From Pseudofrankia inefficax (GTDB taxonomy: Bacteria; Actinomycetota; Actinomycetes; Frankiales; Frankiaceae): DNA of 64,000 bases. The DNA lies in NCBI RefSeq assembly GCF_000166135.1, contig NC_014666.1, forward strand, positions 2,170,001 through 2,234,000. Direction: 5' to 3'. Shown here one piece after another: positions 7,179 through 59,821 of the stretch (positions within the stretch are counted from its first letter, which is position 1; the number at the start of each line of letters is the position of its first letter). Position numbers and translations under genes: made by a program. The notes below the pieces were generated by a model. That model ran no database searches, was not told the origin of the DNA, and saw only the letters and a list, made by a program, of their open reading frames with translations.

Positions 7179-8621
7179 TCAGAGGCCGAGTTCGGCCTCG
7201 AAGGAGCCCTCTTCGAGGCGGGCCTTCACCGTGGTCAGGAAACGGGCCGCGTCGGCGCCGTCGACGATCCGGTGGTCGTAGGTCAGCGCGAGGTAGACCG
7301 TGGAACGCACCGCGATGACCTCGCCGAGGTTCGGGTCCTCGACGACGGCCGGCCGCTTCACGACGGTCCCGGTGCCCAGGATGCCGACCTGCGGCTGGTT
7401 GAGGATCGGGGTGTCGAACAGGGCGCCGCGGCTGCCGGTGTTGGTCAGGGTGAACGTGCCGCCGCTGAGCTCGTCCGGCGAGACCTGGTTCGCGCGGGTG
7501 CGCTTGGCCAGGTCGTCGATCTTGCGGGCCATGCCGGAGAGGTTCAGGTCCCCGGCGTTGTGGATGACCGGAACGGTCAGGCCACGCTCGGTGTCCACCG
7601 CGATGCCGAGGTGCTCGACGTCGTAGTAGGTGATCGTGCCGGCGGCGGTGTCGACGCTGGAGTTCAGCACCGGGTGCTCGCGCAGCGCCTCGCAGGCGGC
7701 GATCGCGAAGAACGGCAGGAACGACAGCTTCACGCCCTCACGGGCGTAGAACGCGTCCTTCGCGTGGTTACGCAGCCTGGCGATCTTGGTGACGTCGGCC
7801 TCGACGACGGTGGTCAGCTGGGCGCTGACCTGCAGCGACTCGACCATCCGCTTGGCGATGACGGTGCGCAGCCGGGAGAGCTTCTCGGTCCTGCCGCGCA
7901 GGGCCGGAACGGGCGCGACCGGAGCCTTGGCGGCGACGGGCGCCGGCGCCGCGGCAGGGGCCGGCGCGCTGGCAACCGGCGCCGGGGCCGCGGCGGGGGC
8001 GGGAGCCGGCGCGGCGGCCGGGGCGGCCTTGGACGCGTCGACGATGTCCTGCTTGCTGATCCGGCCGCCGGGGCCGGTGCCCTTGACCGTGCCCAGGTCG
8101 ACACCCAGCTCGGCGGCCATCTTGCGGACCAGCGGGGTGACGTAACGGGCCTCGCCGTTGGACGCGGCGGTGGTCACCGGCGCGGGAGCCTGAGCGACCG
8201 GCACGGGAGCCGGCGCCGGCGCCGGCGCGGGCGGCGGAGTGACGGGCGCGGGCGGCGGAGCGGCCGCGACGGGCGCCGGCGGGGGAGTGGGAGCCGGCGG
8301 CGGCGTGGGAGCGGGAGCCGGGGCGGGCGCAGGCGCGGGAGCGGCCGCCGCGGCCAATGCCGGCGCGGCAGCGGGAGCCGCCGCACCGTCCTCGATCACC
8401 GCGAGCTCGACGCCGACCTCGACGGTCTCGTCCTCGGCGACCTTGATCGACGAGAGGACGCCGGACGCGGGCGCCGGGATCTCGGTGTCGACCTTGTCGG
8501 TGCTGACCTCAAGGAGCGGCTCGTCGGCTTCGACGTGCTCGCCCTCCTGCTTGAGCCACCGGGTGACCGTGCCCTCGGACACGCTCTCGCCCAGGCGGGG
8601 CATCGTGACGGATACAGACAT
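7179..8621 (-). CDS. sucB: Dihydrolipoamide acyltransferase (E2) of a 2-oxoacid dehydrogenase complex
   Basis: E2 core enzyme that transfers the acyl group from lipoyl-lysine to CoA. Domains in order: one lipoyl domain (1-76, lipoylated K43 in STDKVDT), a long Ala/Pro linker (~80-155), a peripheral-subunit-binding domain (about 160-195, [15 protein letters not shown]), a second Ala/Pro linker, and the catalytic domain to residue 480 with [14 protein letters not shown] near the C-terminus (His/Asp catalytic pair). AGGAGT lies just upstream of the ATG. The E3 gene lpdA lies upstream on the same strand. Actinobacterial enzymes of this type are annotated as either succinyl- or acetyl-transferases; the sequence does not settle which. 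Many relatives carry two or three lipoyl domains, but only one is seen here. Confidence 0.93.
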
Positions 8622-15079: not shown

Positions 15080-18000
15080 GTGTTGCCGGATCGGTGGGGA
15101 TCGTCCCCGGAACGATGGCGGGTCGGCGAGCGCCGTCGGGTCTTTCTCAGCCACACGGGTGAGCTGCGCCAGTACCCGAGGGACCTGTCGTTCGTCGCCG
15201 CCGCCGAGCGCGCGGTGGCCCGGGCCGGTGACGTCGCCGTCGACATGGCCTACTTCGGCGCCCACGACGAGCCGCCGGCCGACTTCTGCGTCGCGCAGGT
15301 GCGGGCGAGCGACGTCTACGTCGGCCTGATCGGTTTCCGCTACGGCTCGCCGACCCGGGAGCAGCCCGACCTCTCCTACACCGAGCTGGAGTTCGAGGCC
15401 GCGACCGAGGCCGGGATCCCGCGGCTGGTCTTCCTGCTCGCCGACGACGCCGTCGTCCCGATCCAGGAGTTCTCCGACCTCGCGTACGGCGACCGGCAGC
15501 GCGGGTTCCGCGACGAGCTGCGGGACGCCGGCATCATCACGACGACCTTCCGCTCGCCGGCGGACCTGGAGACCGCGGTGCTGGACGCCCTGGTCAAGCT
15601 GCGCGACCGCCAGCGCGAGCAGGCGGAGACCGCCGTCGGGCCGGTCGACAGCCTCCTTCGGCCCGGCGGCGCGACCGTGCTGGTCGTCGGGGTCGGCGGG
15701 CCGGACCAGGCGCCAGGGCCCGCGGCGGCGGGGACCGGCGCTCGCCGCCCGTGGATGGTGCCGTCCCGGCACGGCAAGGTGGTCGCCCGCCCGGAGCTCA
15801 CCGAGCAGGTGCTCTCCCGGCTGCTGGAGCCGCGCGGCCCGGGCGGGGCGCGGCCGGCCGTCGTGCTGCGCGGCGTCGGCGGGTTCGGGAAGACGACGCT
15901 CGCGGCGGAGGTGTGCCGGCGGCCGGAGATCGCCGACGCGTTCCCCGGCGGCGTGCTGTGGGTGACGCTGGGCGAGTCGGTCGGCGGCGCCACCCTGGCC
16001 GACAAGATCAACGATCTGAGTGAGGCCCTGTCCGGCGTCCGGCCGGCGCTGGCCGACCCGGAGCAGGCCGGCTTCCGGCTCGGCGAGCTGCTCGGCTCGC
16101 CGCCGCGGCTGCTCGTCGTCGACGACGTGTGGGTCCGTGGCCAGCTCGCCCCGTTCCTGCAGGGTGGGCCGGGCTGCGTCCGGCTGGTCACCACCCGGAT
16201 GCGTGACCTGCCGTCGGACGCCGCCCTGTCCGACCGGATCGAGGTCGCGGCGATGGCCGAGGCCGAGGCCGAGCGGATGCTCACCCTCGACCTCGCCGCT
16301 CCCGGCTCGGCGCTGGCCGTGCGCGCAGACCGCGCCGGGGCGTTGAGCCCGCCGGCCGCGCGGACCGAGCCGGCCGACGCCGGGTCGGTGTCGGCCGACA
16401 CGCCGGCCACCGTCGCCGGGCTGCTGCCGCTGGACCGGACGCGCCAGCTGCTCGACGCGACCGGCCGCTGGCCGGTGCTGCTGCGGCTGGTCAACCGGGC
16501 ACTGGTGCGGATGGTGCGCGACGGCGTGCCGCCAGCCCGCGCCGCCGACCGGGTGCTGCGCCGGCTGGACCGACGCGGCCCGACGGCCTTCGACGTCACC
16601 CGGCTGGAGGACCGTAACCAGGCGGTCGAGGCGACCCTGTCGGCCAGCGTCGGCCTGCTCACCGGCGACGAGCTCGACCGGTACCTGGAGCTGGCGATCT
16701 TCCCGGAGGACGTCGACATCCCGCGCTACGTGCTGGAGGCCTACTGGGGCGCCACGGGCGACCTGAGCCCCGACGAGGTCGACGACCTGTGTCAGGAGCT
16801 CGCGGACCTGTCGCTGGTGCTCGCCTACCGCCGGCATCCGCCGGCTCTGCTGCTCCAGGACGTGCTGCGCTCCTACCTGCGGGTCCGCGTCGGCGAGGAG
16901 CGGCTGCGCGAGCTGCACGGGGTGCTCTGCGACGCGCTGCGCACCCGGCTGCTCGGCGCGGCCGGCGCCGGCGGCCAGCGCCTGGACGGCGAGGACCTCG
17001 ACGACGGCCTCGGCCCGGTACCCCCGGACTCGGCCGCCGCCGCCTCGCCGGTCGAGCCCGGCGGGGCGGCGGCGTGGTGGCGGCTGCCGGACGGGGCTGG
17101 CTACGTCTGGACGCACCTGACCGCGCATCTGGCCGGGGCCGGCCGGGCCGACGAGGCGCTCGCGCTGGTCCGGGACCTGCGGTGGACGGCGGCCAAGCTG
17201 GGCCGGCCCGGCCTCGGACTGGTCGCCCTGGACGCGGACCTCGCGCTGGCCCGGGAGCTCGCGCCGGCCGACCGGGCCCCACGGGCGCTGCGCCGGATGC
17301 TGCGCCAGACCGCGCACCTGTTCGGCCCTACCGAGCCGCCGGACGCGCTGGACGCGGTGCTGCTCAGCCGGCTTGACGGCCTGCCCGCGCTGGCCGAGCC
17401 GCTGGCCCGGTTCGCCGCCACCGTGACGGGGCCGCGGCTGGCCAACCGGTGGAGCCTGCCGGACCAGCCCCATCCGGGCCTGGTCCGGGTGCTGCCCGGT
17501 CACTACCACTCCTGGGTCGACGCCTGCGCGATCGCCCCGGCCGGCGACTGGCTGGCCTCGGCCAGCTCCGACGGCACGGTCCGGCTCTGGGAGGCCGACA
17601 CCGGGGCCGCCCGCGCGACGCTGGCCGGGCATGGCGCCGCCGTGCGCGCCTGCGCGATCGCGCCGAACGGCCGCTGGCTGGTCTCCGGCAGCGAGGACGG
17701 GACGGCGCGGATCTGGGCGGCGACCGGCGGGCCGGCCCGGCTGGAACTGCGCGGGCACGTGGGCAGCGTGCGCGGCGTGGCTGTCGCTCCGACCGGGGAC
17801 TGGCTGGCCACCTGCGGCGACGACGGCACCGTCCGGCACTGGGACGCGGCCACGGGCGACCCAGGGCCCATGATCACGTTGGCGCAGGTCGTGCGGGACG
17901 TCGCGATCGCCCCCGACGGCCAGCTGCTGGCGGCGGCCTGCGAGGACGGGCAGATCCGGCTGTTCACCGCCGACGGCGTCGCGGCCGGCCGGCTGAGCGG

Positions 18001-19303
18001 CCACCGTGGCCCGGTGCGCCGGCTCGCGACCTGCGCCGGGCCGCACTGGCTCGCGTCGGTCGGCCAGGACGGCACCGCGCGCCGCTGGGATCCGGCGGCC
18101 GGGCTGGCCGTCGCCTCCTACGACCTGGGCGCCACGGGCCCGGCCAGCGGCTGCGCGCTGTCCGCGGACGGTGCCTGGCTGGCCGCGACGGCGTCCGACG
18201 GGATGGTGCGGCTGTGGGAGACGGCGACGGGCGCCCGCCACCAGCTCGTCGGGCCGAGCGGCACGGCTGCCGTCTGCGCGTTGGCCGCCGACGGGACCTG
18301 GCTGGTCTCGGCCGGCCGGCACGGCGTGCTGCGGATCTGGGACGTGCGGGCCGCGGACGCCGACGTCGCCCCCGGTGGCAGGGACGAGGGGATGCGCGCC
18401 TGCGTCGCCAGCCACGACGGGAGCTGGATCGTCTCGGTGTCCGAGGACTCGACCGCGGTCCAGTGGGACGTGGCGACCGGCGAGCCAGGCGCGGCGCTGG
18501 TGGGGGAGCGGCTGAGCCCGAACCGTGGCAGCGCGGTCGCGCCCGACGACAGCTGGGTCGCCGTACCCGACCGCGACGGCGGGGTGCGGCTGTGGGAGCC
18601 GGCGACCGGGACCATCCGGGCGGTGCTGAGCGCGCCGAGCGAGGTGCGTGGCTACGCCGTGGGACCGGACGGCTCCTGGCTGGTGGGCGCCTGCCGGGAC
18701 GGCGTCGCGCGGATGTGGGACACCCAGAGCGGCGAGTGGCTCGCCTCGTTCGTCGCCCGTGACCGGAGCGGCCCGGCCACGGCGAGCGGGCTGGAACACG
18801 GCGAGCCGCCGGCGCCGGGCCAGCATGGCGTGGATTCCCACCGGGGGTGTGTGGTAGCGCCGGACGGCTCCTGGGTGGCCGTCGGCGGGGGTCAGCGCGA
18901 CATCCTGGTCTGGGACGTCGCGACCCTCGAGCCGCTGGCCGAGCTGTCCGGGCACACGAACGAGGTGCTGGGCCTCGCCGCCGCGCCCGACGGCCGGTTC
19001 ATGATCTCCGCCGGCTCCGACCACACGGTGCGGGTGTGGTGGACGGACGGCTGGCGGGCCGGGCCGGTTCTCGACGGGCACAGCCACACGGTCCGCGCCG
19101 CGGCGGTCAGCGCCGACGGGGCGTTCGTCGCGAGCGCGGGCGGCGACGGCTCCGTCCGGGTCTGGGAGACCACGGGCTGGCGGTGCGTCGCGCTGATGCG
19201 CTTCGACGGGGCGGCCCGCGACTGCGCCTGGCTGCCCGACGCCCGCGGCCTGGTCGTCGCGGCGTCCGGCGGGCTCTACCTGTACGACCTCGTCCTGGAC
19301 TGA
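15080..19303 (+). CDS. STAND NTPase: DUF4062 + NB-ARC + 14 WD40 repeats
   Basis: Large cytoplasmic signal-transduction NTPase, 1407 residues. Domains: DUF4062 sensor/effector-like region (about 20-120; RVFLSHTGEL, VGLIGFRYGS, LSYTELEFEAA); NB-ARC ATPase with Walker A GVGGFGKTT (~264-272) and Walker B RLLVVDDVW (~343-351); a winged-helix/helical region (~530-800); and a C-terminal WD40 region from ~803 to the end. I count 14 blades by their DGxxRxW-type strands, which fits two seven-bladed propellers. The GTG start is supported by the -10 box 6 nt upstream. STAND proteins sense a ligand with their repeats and oligomerise; relatives act in regulation or antiviral defence, and which applies here is unknown. 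No partner effector gene is adjacent. Confidence 0.93.
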   Translation: MLPDRWGSSPERWRVGERRRVFLSHTGELRQYPRDLSFVAAAERAVARAGDVAVDMAYFGAHDEPPADFCVAQVRASDVYVGLIGFRYGSPTREQPDLSYTELEFEAATEAGIPRLVFLLADDAVVPIQEFSDLAYGDRQRGFRDELRDAGIITTTFRSPADLETAVLDALVKLRDRQREQAETAVGPVDSLLRPGGATVLVVGVGGPDQAPGPAAAGTGARRPWMVPSRHGKVVARPELTEQVLSRLLEPRGPGGARPAVVLRGVGGFGKTTLAAEVCRRPEIADAFPGGVLWVTLGESVGGATLADKINDLSEALSGVRPALADPEQAGFRLGELLGSPPRLLVVDDVWVRGQLAPFLQGGPGCVRLVTTRMRDLPSDAALSDRIEVAAMAEAEAERMLTLDLAAPGSALAVRADRAGALSPPAARTEPADAGSVSADTPATVAGLLPLDRTRQLLDATGRWPVLLRLVNRALVRMVRDGVPPARAADRVLRRLDRRGPTAFDVTRLEDRNQAVEATLSASVGLLTGDELDRYLELAIFPEDVDIPRYVLEAYWGATGDLSPDEVDDLCQELADLSLVLAYRRHPPALLLQDVLRSYLRVRVGEERLRELHGVLCDALRTRLLGAAGAGGQRLDGEDLDDGLGPVPPDSAAAASPVEPGGAAAWWRLPDGAGYVWTHLTAHLAGAGRADEALALVRDLRWTAAKLGRPGLGLVALDADLALARELAPADRAPRALRRMLRQTAHLFGPTEPPDALDAVLLSRLDGLPALAEPLARFAATVTGPRLANRWSLPDQPHPGLVRVLPGHYHSWVDACAIAPAGDWLASASSDGTVRLWEADTGAARATLAGHGAAVRACAIAPNGRWLVSGSEDGTARIWAATGGPARLELRGHVGSVRGVAVAPTGDWLATCGDDGTVRHWDAATGDPGPMITLAQVVRDVAIAPDGQLLAAACEDGQIRLFTADGVAAGRLSGHRGPVRRLATCAGPHWLASVGQDGTARRWDPAAGLAVASYDLGATGPASGCALSADGAWLAATASDGMVRLWETATGARHQLVGPSGTAAVCALAADGTWLVSAGRHGVLRIWDVRAADADVAPGGRDEGMRACVASHDGSWIVSVSEDSTAVQWDVATGEPGAALVGERLSPNRGSAVAPDDSWVAVPDRDGGVRLWEPATGTIRAVLSAPSEVRGYAVGPDGSWLVGACRDGVARMWDTQSGEWLASFVARDRSGPATASGLEHGEPPAPGQHGVDSHRGCVVAPDGSWVAVGGGQRDILVWDVATLEPLAELSGHTNEVLGLAAAPDGRFMISAGSDHTVRVWWTDGWRAGPVLDGHSHTVRAAAVSADGAFVASAGGDGSVRVWETTGWRCVALMRFDGAARDCAWLPDARGLVVAASGGLYLYDLVLD

Positions 19304-41857: not shown

Positions 41858-43663
41858 CTACGAGTGGCCTGAGCGGCGCAGGACGCCCGGCTGGTGGAGG
41901 GTGCGCTCGGCGGGCTCCCGGCGCTCGACCGGCGGTGGTTGCGGTAGTTCGGCGGCGGCGCGGTGGGCGCTCGCGGCGGGCCAGGCCCAGGTGCCGGTCA
42001 GTTGGACCAGCCGGGCGCCCGAGCTGCCCAGCCAGCGCTCGATGCGCTCCATCTCCTCGACCGTCGCCGCCGGGGTCGGCCCGGGCCCTGGCCGCACCGT
42101 CTCGGCGGTGGCGACGACCGCGTCGACCCAGGGACGGGGGTCGATCCCGCGGGCGACCGTCGCGGCCGCGGCGAGCCGGCCATACCTGATGACCGAGAGA
42201 TCCCAGCCTCGCTCGGCTGTCGGGACGGCACCGACCAGTTCGGGGACGGCGCCGAGCGCGGTCAGCCGCTGCTGGCGCGCGGCGGCGCGGACGAACGCCA
42301 CCATCCGGTCGCGCACCAGCGCGGCCTCCTCGAACCTGGTCTGCTCGGCCAACCCGGCGATCCGCGCCCGGGCCGCCGCGACGACCAGCGCCGGGTCGCC
42401 CGTCATCGCCTCGCGGGCGGCGGCGACGACGTCTCCGTACGACTCCACCGACTGCCGGCCGTCGCAGGGAGCGCCACACTTGCCCAGGTCCGCCAGCGCG
42501 CACGCGGGGCTCGTCACCCGGGGCGAGAGCCGCCCGCCACAGCGGCGCAACGCCACCGCGTCCAGCAGGCCGTCACCGGCCAGCTCCGCGCCACCCACGC
42601 CGCCGAAGGGGCCGAGGTAGGTACCCGCGTCCGCGCGGACCTGCCGGACCTTCGACAGCCGGGGGAACGGCTCGTCGGTCAGCCGCAGGAAGACGACGCG
42701 TTCCGGAAACCGGGAGCGGCGGTTGTACGGCGGCTTGTGCTCGGCGATGAGGCGCAGTTCCCGGACCTCGGCCTCCAGCGCGTGCGCGCACGCGATCGCG
42801 TCGACCCGTTCGGCGGCGGCCACCATCTCCGCCATCCGGCTGCGCGTCTCGCTGGCCGTGAAATAGGTGCGCACCCTGGCGCGGACGGACGCCGACTTGC
42901 CGACGTAGAGGACCCGCCCGGTGGCGTCCCGGAAGATGTAGACCCCGGGACCGGTGGGCAGGTCGTCGGCCAGGACCCGTTTCCTGCGCTGGGCGGGGGA
43001 GACCCGGGCGCTGTAGGCATGGACGTCCTCGAGGGTGGTCACTCCGAGGTTGCCGAGCCGTTCGAACAGGCCGTGCAGCACGTCCACCGTCGCCCGTGCG
43101 TCGGCCAAGGCCCGGTGGCACGGCTCGGTACGGGCCCGGAACAGCCGCGCGAGGGACGAGAGCTTGTTGTTGGGACTCTCGTCCCGGGTGACGATCCGGC
43201 GCGCCAGCCGGGCGGTGTCCAGGTGCTCCCAGGTCGGCACCGGGTATCCGACGCGTTCGCAGGCGGCCTTGAGGAAGCTCAGGTCGAAGCCCGCGTTGTG
43301 CGCGACCAGCACCGTGCCCTGGATGAACTCCAGGAAAGCCGGCAGCACCTCGGCGAGTGGCGGGGCCGTCGCCAGCATCGCGTCGGTGATCCCGGTCAGC
43401 ACCGTGATGAGCGGCGGTATCCCGGTCGAGGCGCGGACCAGCGTCGCGAACTCGGCCACCACCTCCCCGCCGCGCACCTTCACCGCGCCGAACTCGGTGA
43501 TCTCGGCGGTGGTCGGCCCCGTGCCGGTCGTCTCCAGGTCGAACACGACGAACGTGACGTCCCGGAGCAGCCGGCCCAGCTCGTCGAAGCTGCCCTGCCG
43601 CCCAGCGGGCACGGCATCGGGGGGCGGGAGCGCGGGTCGCGGCGCGGCCTGATCGAGAGACAC
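41858..43663 (-). CDS. DnaQ-type 3'-5' exonuclease fused to UvrC/Cho-like GIY-YIG nuclease
   Basis: Protein of 601 residues. The N-terminal DEDDh exonuclease (about 30-195) shows VFDLETTGTG, VAHNAGFDLSFL and CHRALADARATVD. A GIY-YIG domain follows (about 225-305; GPGVYIFRDATGRVLYVGKS), as in UvrC and Cho, then a UvrC-like region (YNRRSRFPERVVFLRL). The UvrC C-terminal RNase H and HhH domains are missing. Related fusions occur in mycobacteria near trpD/ctaE. A DNA-repair role is inferred from the domains. The GTG at 43663 has a TACGGT box 6 nt upstream; the frame to 43705 is rejected. Confidence 0.9.
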   Translation of the reverse strand: MSLDQAAPRPALPPPDAVPAGRQGSFDELGRLLRDVTFVVFDLETTGTGPTTAEITEFGAVKVRGGEVVAEFATLVRASTGIPPLITVLTGITDAMLATAPPLAEVLPAFLEFIQGTVLVAHNAGFDLSFLKAACERVGYPVPTWEHLDTARLARRIVTRDESPNNKLSSLARLFRARTEPCHRALADARATVDVLHGLFERLGNLGVTTLEDVHAYSARVSPAQRRKRVLADDLPTGPGVYIFRDATGRVLYVGKSASVRARVRTYFTASETRSRMAEMVAAAERVDAIACAHALEAEVRELRLIAEHKPPYNRRSRFPERVVFLRLTDEPFPRLSKVRQVRADAGTYLGPFGGVGGAELAGDGLLDAVALRRCGGRLSPRVTSPACALADLGKCGAPCDGRQSVESYGDVVAAAREAMTGDPALVVAAARARIAGLAEQTRFEEAALVRDRMVAFVRAAARQQRLTALGAVPELVGAVPTAERGWDLSVIRYGRLAAAATVARGIDPRPWVDAVVATAETVRPGPGPTPAATVEEMERIERWLGSSGARLVQLTGTWAWPAASAHRAAAELPQPPPVERREPAERTLHQPGVLRRSGHS

Positions 43664-43669
43664 ACCGCG

Positions 43670-43675
43670 ACCGTA
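43670..43675 (-). promoter_or_regulatory. -10 box TACGGT for leaderless exonuclease/GIY-YIG gene
   Basis: TACGGT on the minus strand ends 6 nt before the GTG start at 43663. Confidence 0.5.
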
Positions 43676-44208
43676 GTGACCAGGTCCGACAGTCCGGGCA
43701 TCCACGCGACGCTCCGCGTCATGCGCCCCACGTCAGCGCGTCGCGCGGCCCGAATCGCCGTCCCGCTGGCGACCCTTCCCGCGACCTTCTAAGCCGATAC
43801 CTCGTTCACTGCGGGACCCCGGCCGGTGTCCCGACCTGACCAGGGTGCGCGCCTGCCGGCCGGCCCGCCCCGGCAGCTCCGAGGCGCCGACTGCCTGCGC
43901 AGACGCCGATCATCCGGTGGGCTGGGCAAGCTCATTTCCCTTGATCGAGAACTGCGCAGGGAACAAGGGGACAAATCGGGGCACCGGACACCGTTTTGCC
44001 CGCGCAACGAGTGATCAAGGCGCTTCCATGGGGTGGGAGACCGCGTTGATCACTGGCTGCGCAGGGGAAACTGGTGGGCCGGTGGGGGTGGGCGGGATAC
44101 GTCGCCTGGGGGTCTCTTGGGACGAGGCCAGAGCTGAGGCTGGCAGCGGTCACAGTGCTGGGGGCTGGCCGCGGTCGGTGTTTGGGGGCTGGCCGCGGTG
44201 CTGGCTGG
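43676..44208. other. Long intergenic region
   Basis: About 530 nt between a divergently read promoter and the end of the VOC gene. It contains the repeat cluster 43941-44074 and a 15-nt direct repeat GGGGCTGGCCGCGGT (44161-44175 and 44185-44199). Open frames here are repeat-driven and not convincing genes. Confidence 0.5.
43941..44074. repeat. Three copies of a ~28-bp interspersed element
   Basis: Copy 1 (43941-43966, plus): TTGATCGAGAACTGCGCAGG... Copy 2 (43991-44018, inverted) reads on the minus strand TTGATCACTCGTTGCGCGGG... Copy 3 (44046-44074, plus): TTGATCACTGGCTGCGCAGG... All share TTGATC, TGCGC and a GGGxAAA-type ending. Copies 1 and 2 form an imperfect large palindrome. Confidence 0.75.
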
Positions 44209-55530: not shown

Positions 55531-57351
55531 GTGCGTGAGTTCACCTCACCAGCCCTGGTCACAGTGGCCGACGACGCGACGCTCACCGACCGGGTGCTCG
55601 GCTTCGCCGCCAGCCAGCCCGACGCGCCGCTGATCCGGCACAAGGTGGACGGCACGTTCGCCGACCTGACCGCCGGCCAGTTCGTCGAGCTGGTGCAAGC
55701 CGTGGCGGGCGGCCTCGTCACGCACGGAGTGACCCCCGGCAGCCGGGTCGGGATCATGAGCAGGACCCGGTACGAGTGGACCGTGCTGGACTACGCGATC
55801 TGGACCGCCGGCGCGGTGACGGTCCCGATCTACGAGACGTCCAGCGCCGAGCAGATCGCCTGGATCCTCACCGACGCCGAGGTCGGCCTCGTCGTCGCCG
55901 AGACGCCGAAGCTCGCGGCGCTGGTGGCCCAGGTGCGCGACGAGGCTCCGGCGCTGCGCGAGGTGCTCGTCCTCGACCCGGCGGCCGGCGAGACCGGTGC
56001 GCTGGAGACGCTGCGCGCCGACGGAGCGGCCGTCCCGCCCGCCGCGCTCGCCGAGGCGCGCGCCGGCGTGCGGGCCGACAGCCTCGCGACCCTCATCTAC
56101 ACCTCCGGCACGACCGGGCGGCCCAAGGGCTGCGAGCTTTCCCACCGGGCGCTGCTGTTCGACGCACTGTCCTCAATCGCGATGGCCCCCGACGTGTTCA
56201 CCGCCGGGGCCTCCACGCTGCTGTTCCTGCCGCTCGCGCACGTCTTCGCGCGGCTGGTGCAGAACATCGCCATCCAGAGCTGCCTGCCGATCGCCTACAC
56301 GTCCGACACGAAGACGCTGCTCGCCGACCTGGCCCAGGCGAAGCCGAGCTATGTGCTGGCGGTGCCGCGGGTCTTCGAGAAGGTGCACGCCGGCGCCCGG
56401 CAGAAGGCCCACAACGAGGGCAAGGGCAAGATCTTCGACGCCGCCGAGGCGACCGCCGTCGCCTACAGCGAGGCGCTCGCCACGCCGGGCGGGCCGGGGC
56501 TCGTGCTGCGGGCCCGCCACGCGGTGTTCGACCGGCTGGTCTACGCGAAGCTGCGCGCCGCGCTCGGCGGCCAGGTCCGCAACGCGGTGAGCGGCGGCGC
56601 CCCGCTCGGTGAGCGGCTGGCCCACTTCTTCCGCGGCATCGGCGTGACGATCCTCGAGGGCTACGGCCTGACCGAGACGTCGGCCGCCGTCACGGTCAAC
56701 CGGCCGGGCAACGTCCGGGTCGGCACCGTCGGCCAGCCGCTGCCAGGGGTGACCGTCCGCGTCGCCGACGACGGCGAGGTGCTCGTGCGCGGCCCGCTCG
56801 TGTTCACCGCCTACCACGCGAACGAGACCGCCACCAAGGAGGCTCTCGACGCCGACGGCTACTTCCACACCGGCGACATGGGCAGCCTCGACGTCGACGG
56901 CTTCCTGCGGATCACCGGGCGCAAGAAGGAGATCCTGGTGACCGCCGGCGGCAAGAACGTCGCGCCGGCGCCCCTGGAGCACCGGCTGCAGACGCATCCG
57001 CTGATCAGCCAGGCGATGGTGATCGGCGACCGGCGCCCGTTCATCGCCGCGCTGCTCACCGTCGACGAGGAGGCGCTGCCGCACTGGCTGGCCGCGCACG
57101 GGCGGCCGCGGGACACCCCGGCGAGCGCGCTGGTCCACGACCCCGAGCTCCTGGCGGACCTGCAGATGGCGGTCGACTCCGCGAACGCGTCCGTCTCACA
57201 CGCCGAGGGGATCAAGAAGTTCAGCGTGCTGCCGGCGGACTTCACCGTCGAGACCGGCGAGCTGACCCCGAGCCTGAAGGTGCGCCGCTCCCTCGTCATG
57301 GACAGGTACGCCTCGGCCGTCACCGAGATCTACGGGACCGCCGAGGCCTAG
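55531..57351 (+). CDS. Long-chain fatty-acyl-CoA ligase (FadD15-like)
   Basis: AMP-forming acyl-CoA synthetase of 606 residues. P-loop YTSGTTGRPKGCELSH is near 190-205; GYGLTETSAAVTVN and the YFHTGDMGSLD-GFLRITGRKKE region are complete, followed by TAGGKNVAPAPLE with the Lys of the ligase family. The GTG at 55531 was chosen because AAGGAG lies 6 nt before it; a GTG at 55474 would add 19 residues. It lies beside plsC and pimB genes, which fits phospholipid synthesis. It overlaps the convergent GH5-like gene by 4 nt. Confidence 0.93.
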   Translation: MREFTSPALVTVADDATLTDRVLGFAASQPDAPLIRHKVDGTFADLTAGQFVELVQAVAGGLVTHGVTPGSRVGIMSRTRYEWTVLDYAIWTAGAVTVPIYETSSAEQIAWILTDAEVGLVVAETPKLAALVAQVRDEAPALREVLVLDPAAGETGALETLRADGAAVPPAALAEARAGVRADSLATLIYTSGTTGRPKGCELSHRALLFDALSSIAMAPDVFTAGASTLLFLPLAHVFARLVQNIAIQSCLPIAYTSDTKTLLADLAQAKPSYVLAVPRVFEKVHAGARQKAHNEGKGKIFDAAEATAVAYSEALATPGGPGLVLRARHAVFDRLVYAKLRAALGGQVRNAVSGGAPLGERLAHFFRGIGVTILEGYGLTETSAAVTVNRPGNVRVGTVGQPLPGVTVRVADDGEVLVRGPLVFTAYHANETATKEALDADGYFHTGDMGSLDVDGFLRITGRKKEILVTAGGKNVAPAPLEHRLQTHPLISQAMVIGDRRPFIAALLTVDEEALPHWLAAHGRPRDTPASALVHDPELLADLQMAVDSANASVSHAEGIKKFSVLPADFTVETGELTPSLKVRRSLVMDRYASAVTEIYGTAEA

Positions 57352-58868
57352 GCTGACCCGCGCCGGGCCGGTCGGCGGTGGCGGGCCGGGCGCTCGGCAG
57401 CCGCCTGGGCTGGCGGCCCGTCTGGCGAGCTCGAGCCTGGCGCTGCGCCGGCTCGCTCGTCCGGCGCCGGCGTGTCGTCGGGGTCCGTGAACGGCGACCG
57501 GGAGCCGGTGCGGCCGGTGCCGACGCGCAGCCCGCGCAGCAGCCGGAACGGCACGACCAGCAGCAGCGCCATGACGGCCGCGCCCAGCAGCGGCAGCGCC
57601 CACAGCAACGGGCCCGAGTAGTCGTCCTTCTTCGTCGCGGTGTCGGTCCGCGCGGCCGCGTTGGTGGCCGGCGCGCTCGGCGCCGCGGCCACCGTCGGGT
57701 CCGCGCACGCCTGGGCACCGGCGTAGGGCACCGGGGTCGGCGCCGAGCCCGCCGTGGCCCGGGTGACGGTCAGGGAGACCTCGGTGGCGCCGGGCTGTGC
57801 CGCCACGCACAGCAGCGCGGAGCCGGGCCGTGACACCAGCCGGGCGCCGGTCAGCGTGAGCGTGTACCCGGTCGGGTAGGCGGCGGCGGGCAGGCTGACG
57901 GCGCTGACCCAGCCGGCCGGCGTCGGCTTCCCGCTCGGCAGCGTGCCGGGGGCGTACCGCAGGGTGAACGTGCCGGCGGTGTCGGTGCCGAACGAGGCCG
58001 GGGTGCCGGCGATCGCCAGTGGGTACGCCCGGGCGAGCGCCGGCGGGAGCGGCCCGGCCGCCGGGGCGGGGTAGAGCCAGCCGATCGTGTTGCCGTCGGC
58101 CGCGGCGGTGAACGCGGCCAGCGCCGCGTCGCCGCCGGGCCACGACGTCAGGTAGCCGGTCGGGTCGTTGACGGCGACGGTCGCCGCGGGCTGGAACGAG
58201 GCTGGCTGCTCCCGCCACAGGAGGTGGAACGGGTCGACCGCCGCGATGGCCGCGCTGCCCGCCAGGACGGCCGCCGCGTCCTTGGTCTGCGCGTGGGGGA
58301 GCTCGTAGCCGGTCAGGCCGCCCGTGTCGCGGAAGGCCGCGGCGAGCCGGCGCAGGGCGGCCTGAAGCGCCGTCGGTGCCACCGTGGCGCCGCCTACCGG
58401 CACGACCCGCAGCGCCACGACGAAGCCCCGGTTGGTCAGGGCCCTGACCACGTTCCCCGCGGCGACGAGGCCCGGGTCGTTCACGGTCGCGCCCGTCGTC
58501 GGGTCGGGGAAGCGCCCCGCCGCGGACAGCGGGACCGTCACCCCGGCCGCGTCGAAACCCGCCTGGACCCAGGCGTCGAGCTCGGCCGCCGTCGGGGTCA
58601 CCCCGGCCGGCACCATCAGCCCGTGCGGGACGAACATCCTGCCGTTGCCGTCGACCAGGTAGCTGCCGGCGCGGGTCACCGTCCCGATCGGCGCCTGCGC
58701 GGTACCGGCGGACGAGGCGCCTGTCGGGCTCCCGGCCGCGAGTGCCGCCGACGCGGAACCGCTCCAGGCGAGGCCGAGCACGGCGGCCAGCGTGACGCCG
58801 GTGGCCAGCCGGGTGGCGCGCCGCCCGTGTCGCCCGTTGTGCGCCGAATATGCCCCCACGGCCTCCAT
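57348..58868 (-). CDS. GH5-like secreted/membrane-anchored protein, catalytic residues lost
   Basis: Protein of 506 residues with a Tat/Sec-like basic signal region (RRATRLATGVTLAAVLGLAW), an endoglycoceramidase-like GH5 N-terminal part (SYLVDGNGRMFVPHGLMV), a beta-rich GH5 C-terminal-type domain (~330-400), then a membrane helix (LLWALPLLGAAVMALLLVVP) and a Pro-rich cytoplasmic tail. At about residues 185-193 the expected catalytic NE pair of a GYDLMNEP-like strand reads GYELPHAQ, so the acid/base Glu seems lost. No obvious nucleophile Glu segment is seen. It may bind glycans rather than cut them. The ATG at 58868 or a GTG at 58856 could be the start. Confidence 0.75.
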   Translation of the reverse strand: MEAVGAYSAHNGRHGRRATRLATGVTLAAVLGLAWSGSASAALAAGSPTGASSAGTAQAPIGTVTRAGSYLVDGNGRMFVPHGLMVPAGVTPTAAELDAWVQAGFDAAGVTVPLSAAGRFPDPTTGATVNDPGLVAAGNVVRALTNRGFVVALRVVPVGGATVAPTALQAALRRLAAAFRDTGGLTGYELPHAQTKDAAAVLAGSAAIAAVDPFHLLWREQPASFQPAATVAVNDPTGYLTSWPGGDAALAAFTAAADGNTIGWLYPAPAAGPLPPALARAYPLAIAGTPASFGTDTAGTFTLRYAPGTLPSGKPTPAGWVSAVSLPAAAYPTGYTLTLTGARLVSRPGSALLCVAAQPGATEVSLTVTRATAGSAPTPVPYAGAQACADPTVAAAPSAPATNAAARTDTATKKDDYSGPLLWALPLLGAAVMALLLVVPFRLLRGLRVGTGRTGSRSPFTDPDDTPAPDERAGAAPGSSSPDGPPAQAAAERPARHRRPARRGSA

Positions 58869-58978: not shown

Positions 58979-59821
58979 TCAGTCGGACTCACGGGTGGCG
59001 CTGGCCCGGGCGGGGTCGGCCTGCCTGGGGGCGCCGGTCCGCTTCGGCTTCCCCGGTTCGCCCGGACGTCCGGGCACCGCGGCCGAGCCGGGCGCCGCGG
59101 CGGTGCCGGACAGTTCGGCGACGGCCGCCGCGGCGGCGGCACGGGACGCGGCGAGCTCGTCCTTGGCCTGCTGGGCGTACATGTCGACGTACTCCTGGCC
59201 GGACAGCTGCATCAGCTCGTACATGATCTCGTCGGTGATCGAGCGCAGCACGAAGCGGTCGTCGGCCATGTCCTGGTAGCGGCTGAAGTCCAGCGGCCGG
59301 CCGATCCGCATGCCGACCCGGCGAATCCGCGGGATCGTGCGGCCCTGCGGCTGGACCTCGAACGTCCCGAACATGGCCACCGGGACGACCAGCACCTTGG
59401 CCTCCAGCGCCATCCGGGCGACGCCGACCTTGCCCCGGTAGAGCCGCCCGTCCGGCGAGCGGGTGCCCTCGGGGTAGATCCCGAGCAGCTTCCCGCCGGA
59501 GAGCACGCGCACGCCGGAGCGCAGCGCCGCGTCGCTGGCCTTACCGCCGCTGCGGTCGATCGGCAGCTGGCCCACGCCGCTGAAGAACATCCGCTTCGCC
59601 CGGCCCTTGAGGCCGCCCTGGGTGAAGTAGTCCATCTTCGCGAGGAAGGTGACCCGCCGCGGCAGCATCAGCGGCAGGAAGATCGAGTCCAGGAAGGACA
59701 GGTGGTTGCTGGCAAGGATCGCCGGCCCTTCCGCCGGCACGTGCTCCAGTCCCTCGATCCAGGGGCGCCAGAACGTGCGCAGAAACGGTGAAAGGACCAC
59801 CTTGACGACCCAGTAGAACAC
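58979..59821 (-). CDS. plsC: 1-acyl-sn-glycerol-3-phosphate acyltransferase family
   Basis: Membrane-associated acyltransferase of 280 residues that makes phosphatidic acid. The HX4D catalytic motif NHLSFLD lies near residues 39-45 and the substrate motif YPEGTRSPDG near 115-124. The C-terminal ~60 residues are a Pro/Ala/Arg-rich tail. The start is GTG 59821 with a GGAG site upstream. It sits near the acyl-CoA ligase and PimB genes, in line with phospholipid synthesis. Confidence 0.9.
   Translation of the reverse strand: MFYWVVKVVLSPFLRTFWRPWIEGLEHVPAEGPAILASNHLSFLDSIFLPLMLPRRVTFLAKMDYFTQGGLKGRAKRMFFSGVGQLPIDRSGGKASDAALRSGVRVLSGGKLLGIYPEGTRSPDGRLYRGKVGVARMALEAKVLVVPVAMFGTFEVQPQGRTIPRIRRVGMRIGRPLDFSRYQDMADDRFVLRSITDEIMYELMQLSGQEYVDMYAQQAKDELAASRAAAAAAVAELSGTAAAPGSAAVPGRPGEPGKPKRTGAPRQADPARASATRESD

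Follow-up and report, generated by a model that had tools for sequence, protein, structure and literature searches.

The gene at positions 57348–58868 (minus strand) of a 64,000-nucleotide stretch of the Pseudofrankia inefficax genome (contig NC_014666.1; hereafter the window) raises the question of what a relative of a glycoside hydrolase is kept for once its catalytic residues are gone. An initial annotation had described the product as a membrane-anchored protein of the glycoside hydrolase family 5 (GH5) fold without catalytic glutamates. This description holds for a whole family of relatives, with the glutamates absent at both positions in 24 of 24 aligned members and a hydrophobic C-terminal helix in all of them. 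We consider the protein a conserved pseudoenzyme, a non-catalytic, membrane-anchored derivative of GH5 endoglycoceramidases fixed beside a PlsM-like acyltransferase gene, and assign this reading a probability of roughly 0.62. What can be read from the sequences is the descent, the loss in every aligned member, the shortening, two cysteines, the helix, a single clade, the gene order and a ratio of nonsynonymous to synonymous substitution rates (dN/dS) below 1.

The annotated coordinates, given without a strand, coincide exactly with an intact minus-strand open frame of 506 amino acids plus stop in this 8.8 Mb, single-contig genome. The guanine-plus-cytosine content at codon positions 1, 2 and 3 was 0.74, 0.67 and 0.95, which is a coding signature; two neighbouring genes have 0.95–0.96 at the third position. 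The gene is real, and its parts are as follows.

57348..58868, minus: whole gene, 506 amino acids; 4 bases at its 3′ end are shared with the end of the acyl-CoA ligase gene, which is convergent
58734..58868, minus: putative N-terminal export signal, about residues 1–45, with a GRRATRL basic stretch, a hydrophobic segment and an Ala-rich end, as suggested by sequence and hydropathy
58203..58682, minus: N-terminal half of the GH5 barrel, residues 63–222 (N-terminal hairpin, β1 to β5), from profile alignments and models
58284..58310, minus: acid/base strand GYELPHAQT, residues 187–195, with the Asn-Glu-Pro (NEP) motif lost, from sequence and alignments
58128..58157, minus: nucleophile strand GYLTSWPGGD, residues 238–247, with Ser242 for Glu, from alignments
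57765..58031, minus: PF18564 Glyco_hydro_5_C beta domain, residues 280–368, from Pfam
57807..57809, minus: Cys354, first invariant cysteine of the ectodomain (24/24), probable disulfide partner
57705..57707, minus: Cys388, second invariant cysteine of the ectodomain (24/24), probable disulfide partner
57528..57614, minus: C-terminal transmembrane helix with Arg flank, residues 419–447, GPLLWALPLLGAAVMALLLVVPFRLLRGL; hydropathy 2.59, helix in the model
57351..57527, minus: short Pro/Ala/Arg-rich tail, residues 448–506, presumably cytoplasmic, from sequence
58979..59821, minus: upstream PF01553 acyltransferase gene, PlsM-like; similarity and gene order point to the Rv2182c group

Sequence comparison places the origin of the gene among the actinobacterial GH5 endoglycoceramidases. 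The single protein matched only PF18564 in Pfam (residues 280–368, E = 1.3e-9, 38.8 bits against a curated cut-off of 22), and the domain is present in 24/24 aligned relatives, so the GH5 C-terminal-like domain named in the initial annotation is real. The NCBIfam model for endoglycoceramidase I, NF051847, gave a partial match of 39.8 bits, below its score cut-off of 700; we judged this cut-off narrow because a single one of the 148 genomes searched in the class reaches it. Since a PDB search with the single protein returned weak matches (best E = 0.017), a profile of the 24 members was needed. This profile matched Rhodococcus equi endoglycoceramidase I (EGC I) at 7e-31 and Rhodococcus EGC II at 3.6e-6. 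Its first domain, aligned with the N-terminal GH5 stretch of EGC I, had an i-Evalue of 4.6e-9, which also bears out the N-terminal GH5 strand recognized earlier. Alignment of the family with 13 intact actinobacterial endoglycoceramidase-like proteins in hhalign extended over 308 columns, spanning the barrel and the PF18564 domain, with a probability of 99.95.

The 24 sequences came from the 32 matching genomes of the order. Left out were G003 (masked letters), G007, G013, G016, G017 and G034 (fragments or split genes), G031 (ambiguous letters) and G011 (a near copy). Because each frame was delimited by stop codons at both ends, openness follows by construction; start codons of the relatives were chosen by a script, which leaves their N-termini unsure.

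At the acid/base position, the LPHA reported earlier was borne out, the strand reading GYELPHA without NEP. Read without gaps, none of the 24 members has the acid/base Glu, and the position holds Ala (7), Gly (7), Thr (3), Ser (3), Pro (3) or Gln (1); a gapped profile alignment instead puts Lys196 of this protein there. MNEP, given in the initial annotation as the active form, is not the usual one, as only one of 16 intact sequences (L074) reads so. The same annotation had found no nucleophile segment. The segment is in fact present as GYLTSWPGGD, which aligns with LLTEFG or VITEFGDGD of the intact enzymes, with Ser for Glu. The nucleophile Glu of the E(F/W)G motif was likewise found in 0/24 members (Gly 20, Ser 3, Ala 1), and a check of the homologues thus showed the loss to be conserved. 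Retention of the motifs in the intact enzymes is a matter of selection, because these were chosen for NEP and E(F/W/Y)G. For L006 and L007 a regular expression put the nucleophile strand in the wrong place; the nucleophile counts are not based on it. The rows L007, L017, L029 and L030, outside the alignment, also lack NEP, and L007 has Pro at the otherwise invariant Trp243. The β3 His-Gln pair is lost as well, positions 155–157 reading Ile/Leu/Val, Val/Ala and Pro in 24/24, and the β2 Arg is retained in 15/24. A same-genus genome (L009, G006:C99) carries this gene together with an apparently intact endoglycoceramidase-like protein in which NEP and TEFG are present.

A search for overlooked active-site acidic residues yielded Asp73, Glu189, Asp212 and Asp258, acidic in at least 90% of members. 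Intact enzymes are mostly acidic at these places too, so the four residues are probably structural and suggest no new chemistry. Among His, Lys and Arg, only Arg66, Arg77, Arg174, His215 and Arg280 are retained in at least 90% of members. The alignment has 43 invariant columns (start Met counted), among which are two Cys and four Trp as well as part of the helix.

The chain between the catalytic strands is much reduced. The acid/base and nucleophile positions are 44–52 residues apart versus 103–122 in the 13 intact relatives, and the distance from the N-terminal Asp to the acid/base position is 119–139 versus 170–176 residues. By this comparison, over a third of the barrel is lost. Exactly two cysteines lie between the signal region and the helix in 24/24 members, 33–35 residues apart, a count that excludes extra cysteines in the N-terminal region (L012, L013, L015, L016 and L026) and one at the helix end (L024). 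The strand equivalent to that of Cys354 contains no Cys in the 13 intact relatives, as read by eye from the alignment. A Cys354–Cys388 disulfide is probable from this pattern.

Of the signal peptide and C-terminal helix claimed in the initial annotation, the helix is strong: a hydrophobic helix followed by Arg occurs in 24/24, with a 19-residue mean of 2.59 in this protein. The N-terminal segment is only moderate here (residues 27–45, mean 1.56). Its hydrophobic peak reaches at least 1.6 in 19/24 relatives and falls below this in five, perhaps because the wrong start codon was chosen in some of them. Export is likely, judging from hydropathy. The stretch after the helix is 6–153 residues long (6–7 in six members); it shows no conservation from genus to genus, and one genus has hardly any of it. 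In three same-genus members (L004–L006) the long tail ends in GRHRATRR, and a fourth genome yielded a short fragment, L008, with GKHRASRR at its end. A Pfam scan of the 24 members gave no family other than PF18564 at a meaningful E-value, and no signalling domain.

Two AlphaFold models, each built from three sequences, were of weak overall quality, with predicted local distance difference test (pLDDT) values of 52 and 56 and predicted template modelling (pTM) scores of 0.38 and 0.52. No different fold emerged: endoglycoceramidases were the top 5 Foldseek matches in one model run and the top 14 in the other, at low TM-scores of 0.28–0.35. The first half of the barrel fits; in the first model it superposed on EGC I (5j14_B) at 2.8 Å over 137 residues with 25% identity (Z 9.5), and in the second model the block covering residues 71–180 of the protein had pLDDT values of 73–92. 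In this half-barrel superposition the best score went to 4n0r_B (Z 10.1), a different glycoside hydrolase, with many GH5 chains lying within 1–2 Z of the EGCs, so the superposition shows a GH5-type half barrel and not the endoglycoceramidase branch. The second half was poorly modelled, and the strong shortening seen by sequence lies in a region where the models are weak. A hairpin, TVAVNDPTGYLTSW, replacing β6-α6-β7 had been considered from the sequence alone; it was dropped, as the models gave it no support.

Of 35 genomes of the order, all from a single family, 32 gave a match, some as fragments only. Four of the seven genera carry the gene; the three genomes without it belong to the three other genera. 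Among these, G021 has the acyltransferase followed by a different gene, the contig of G023 (63% complete) ends inside the acyltransferase, and no close acyltransferase was found in G022. The named relatives are Frankia sp. AgB1.9 (89% identity) and Frankia nepalensis (58%), and the gene is also present in a smaller genome of 5.4 Mb (G010). In addition to 29 genomes from the family, 22 of 393 in the class gave matches in a search that scored four candidates per genome; these 22 matches mostly covered the C-terminal domain, and nine of the 22 genomes also matched the endoglycoceramidase model in the 148-genome search. In a tree of 38 rows the 24 sequences form one clade (support 100/100), split by genus. 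The dN/dS values for 12 pairs were 0.31–0.55 by a simple Nei–Gojobori count without significance test. Selection on the gene is purifying but loose.

The gene adjoins the PF01553 acyltransferase gene, on the same strand and downstream of it, in 16/16 regions, which were picked from genomes with long matches among the 32. In the window, the other side holds genes for the acyl-CoA ligase, a metallophosphatase, an SRPBCC protein, an ArsA-type ATPase, a ROK kinase and a group-1 glycosyltransferase. A neighbour taken for a DAHP synthase (AroG) was ruled out as such, Pfam showing an ArgZ/LOR-SDH protein. Two genomes of genus g10, which are probably mycobacteria, have the acyltransferase (52 and 57% identical) within clusters where the ligase, the SRPBCC gene and an exonuclease occur as well, so the cluster is old in actinobacteria. 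Six cluster regions sampled from other families contained the acyltransferase, and this gene was not detected in them. Rv2182c is PlsM, an essential sn-2 acyltransferase encoded beside genes for phosphatidylinositol mannosides and lipoarabinomannan in mycobacteria (PMC10593935). Similarity and gene order fit orthology of the Frankiaceae acyltransferase to Rv2182c/PlsM. Near 7630–8550 of L150 (G017), the acyltransferase frame runs into a stretch resembling another protein, possibly a misassembly in this draft of about 1200 contigs.

Under the pseudoenzyme reading, the ancestor would have been an exported endoglycoceramidase-type GH5 protein. Both catalytic glutamates would have disappeared from it, together with most of the residues linking the catalytic strands, which help to form the substrate channel of the parent. 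It would also have acquired a probable disulfide and, at its C terminus, an anchor in the membrane. The gene would have become fixed beside that of the PlsM-like glycerolipid acyltransferase before the four genera of the family split. The product would be exported, sit on the outer side of the cytoplasmic membrane and work without catalysis. Its likeliest role would be that of a structural or (glyco)lipid-binding envelope protein of Frankiaceae, made together with the acyltransferase. A tentative and rather doubtful extension is a disulfide-pinned protein, tethered to the membrane, that binds lipids or glycolipids and works with the PlsM-type glycerolipid pathway, for example in the retention or delivery of phosphatidylinositol mannosides or of other lipids of the envelope. 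Several observations weigh against the pseudoenzyme reading. The second barrel half has low confidence (block pLDDT 24–40 at residues 151–230 of the second model), and whole-model superpositions on EGCs give root mean square deviations of 8 to 11 Å. The gene evolves faster than its neighbours: identity to the nearest relative is 89%, whereas the acyltransferase reaches 98% and the ligase 96%, a pattern that also fits relaxed constraint. Two highly fragmented drafts, G013 and G017, break the pairing as assembled: different frames come after the acyltransferase, and the piece of the family gene lies at the end of another contig. Co-location may mean co-expression only, because the acyltransferase probably acts at the inner side of the membrane.

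The initial annotation had proposed a glycan or glycolipid sensor, in which a dead GH5 module binds sugar outside and signals inward. Rsi24C sets the precedent, its GH5 module without the acid/base residue interacting with cellulose and being joined to an anti-sigma factor (PMC3526467), and the topology of an outside domain with one helix would permit such a function. A sensor requires an inner signalling part, however, and none was seen: PF18564 is the sole meaningful Pfam family, and the tails can be as short as six residues. The residues with which the parent contacts sugar (the catalytic Asn-Glu, the second Glu and β3 His-Gln) are mostly lost, and the two adjacent genes encode an acyl-CoA ligase and an acyltransferase. 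The sensor is thus not supported, and we regard it as unlikely. The tight pairing with the acyltransferase gene would also suit a regulator or scaffold that contacts the PlsM-like enzyme through the helix or tail; this is quite unlikely, as the tail lacks conservation between genera, with almost none of it in one, and the conserved mass is presumably on the opposite side of the membrane.

Fast divergence, a dN/dS high for a core gene and an early stop that shortens the tail in one close relative (L003) could point to a functionless relic under weak constraint, kept by its position. Against this stand open frames in 24 aligned members of four genera, persistence in the 5.4 Mb genome, and invariant columns that include the two Cys, the four Trp and part of the helix, and we consider a relic improbable. 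Some glycoside hydrolase families use unusual catalytic machinery, and Glu189, Asp212 and Asp258 are acidic in at least 23 of the 24 members, so that an enzyme using other residues might be imagined. Yet intact endoglycoceramidases share these acidic places, as expected of structural inheritance, few basic residues or histidines are conserved, and a large part of the chain linking the catalytic strands has been lost; continued catalysis is therefore highly improbable.

The conserved pseudoenzyme resembles R. equi EGC I (5CCU, 5J14, 5J7Z) and Rhodococcus EGC II (2OSX group) in the N-terminal hairpin, the first barrel half, the position of the nucleophile strand, PF18564 and presumed export. It differs from them in lacking both catalytic Glu, in the strongly shortened barrel, in two new Cys and in the C-terminal membrane helix. 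Endoglycosylceramidases belong to the subfamilies GH5_27/28/29 (PMC3526467). Like the Rsi24C-GH5 biosensor of Clostridium thermocellum, the protein would have a GH5 module outside the cell that is non-catalytic and linked to a membrane protein, its own location being suggested by hydropathy. The Rsi24C module is joined to an anti-sigma factor, whereas the present protein showed no signalling domain and has a barrel that is itself reduced. Aspeborg et al. (2012) described non-catalytic GH5 groups, namely GH5_30, a Xanthomonas subgroup of GH5_1 and GH5_8-like lipoproteins (PMC3526467), and together with Rsi24C they make non-catalytic GH5 modules already known as a kind. These, too, are entire groups in which catalytic residues of GH5 have been lost, and two of the groups show long branches, but they belong to subfamilies other than the present endoglycoceramidase-derived family. 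The section on non-catalytic GH5 in that survey names no endoglycoceramidase-derived group (PMC3526467). A search combining Frankia with endoglycoceramidase found nothing in the literature library used; a 2008 paper on the Frankia secretome mentions putative glycosidases of another type (with a ManB domain, some GH26-like) and other hydrolases (PMC2266912), and none of its accession numbers could be matched with this gene.

Elsewhere in the window, two further genes were seen. Positions 15080–19303 (plus strand) encode a 1407-amino-acid protein with DUF4062, an NB-ARC ATPase and many WD40 repeats, a STAND-type architecture often discussed in signalling or defence. Positions 41858–43705 (minus strand) encode a 615-amino-acid protein joining an RNase T-type exonuclease domain to a GIY-YIG nuclease domain.

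The case shows how far a GH5 barrel can shrink while dN/dS stays below 1, and labelling such genes as active endoglycoceramidases would be wrong. It presents a whole orthologous family from the endoglycoceramidase branch, present in most of the genomes searched within a single bacterial family, with a lipid acyltransferase gene as its partner. If the extension to a lipid- or glycolipid-binding protein is true, a glycolipid hydrolase would have given rise to a non-catalytic envelope component peculiar to the actinorhizal family Frankiaceae and, if the protein binds envelope lipids, it would offer a handle on the Frankia envelope.

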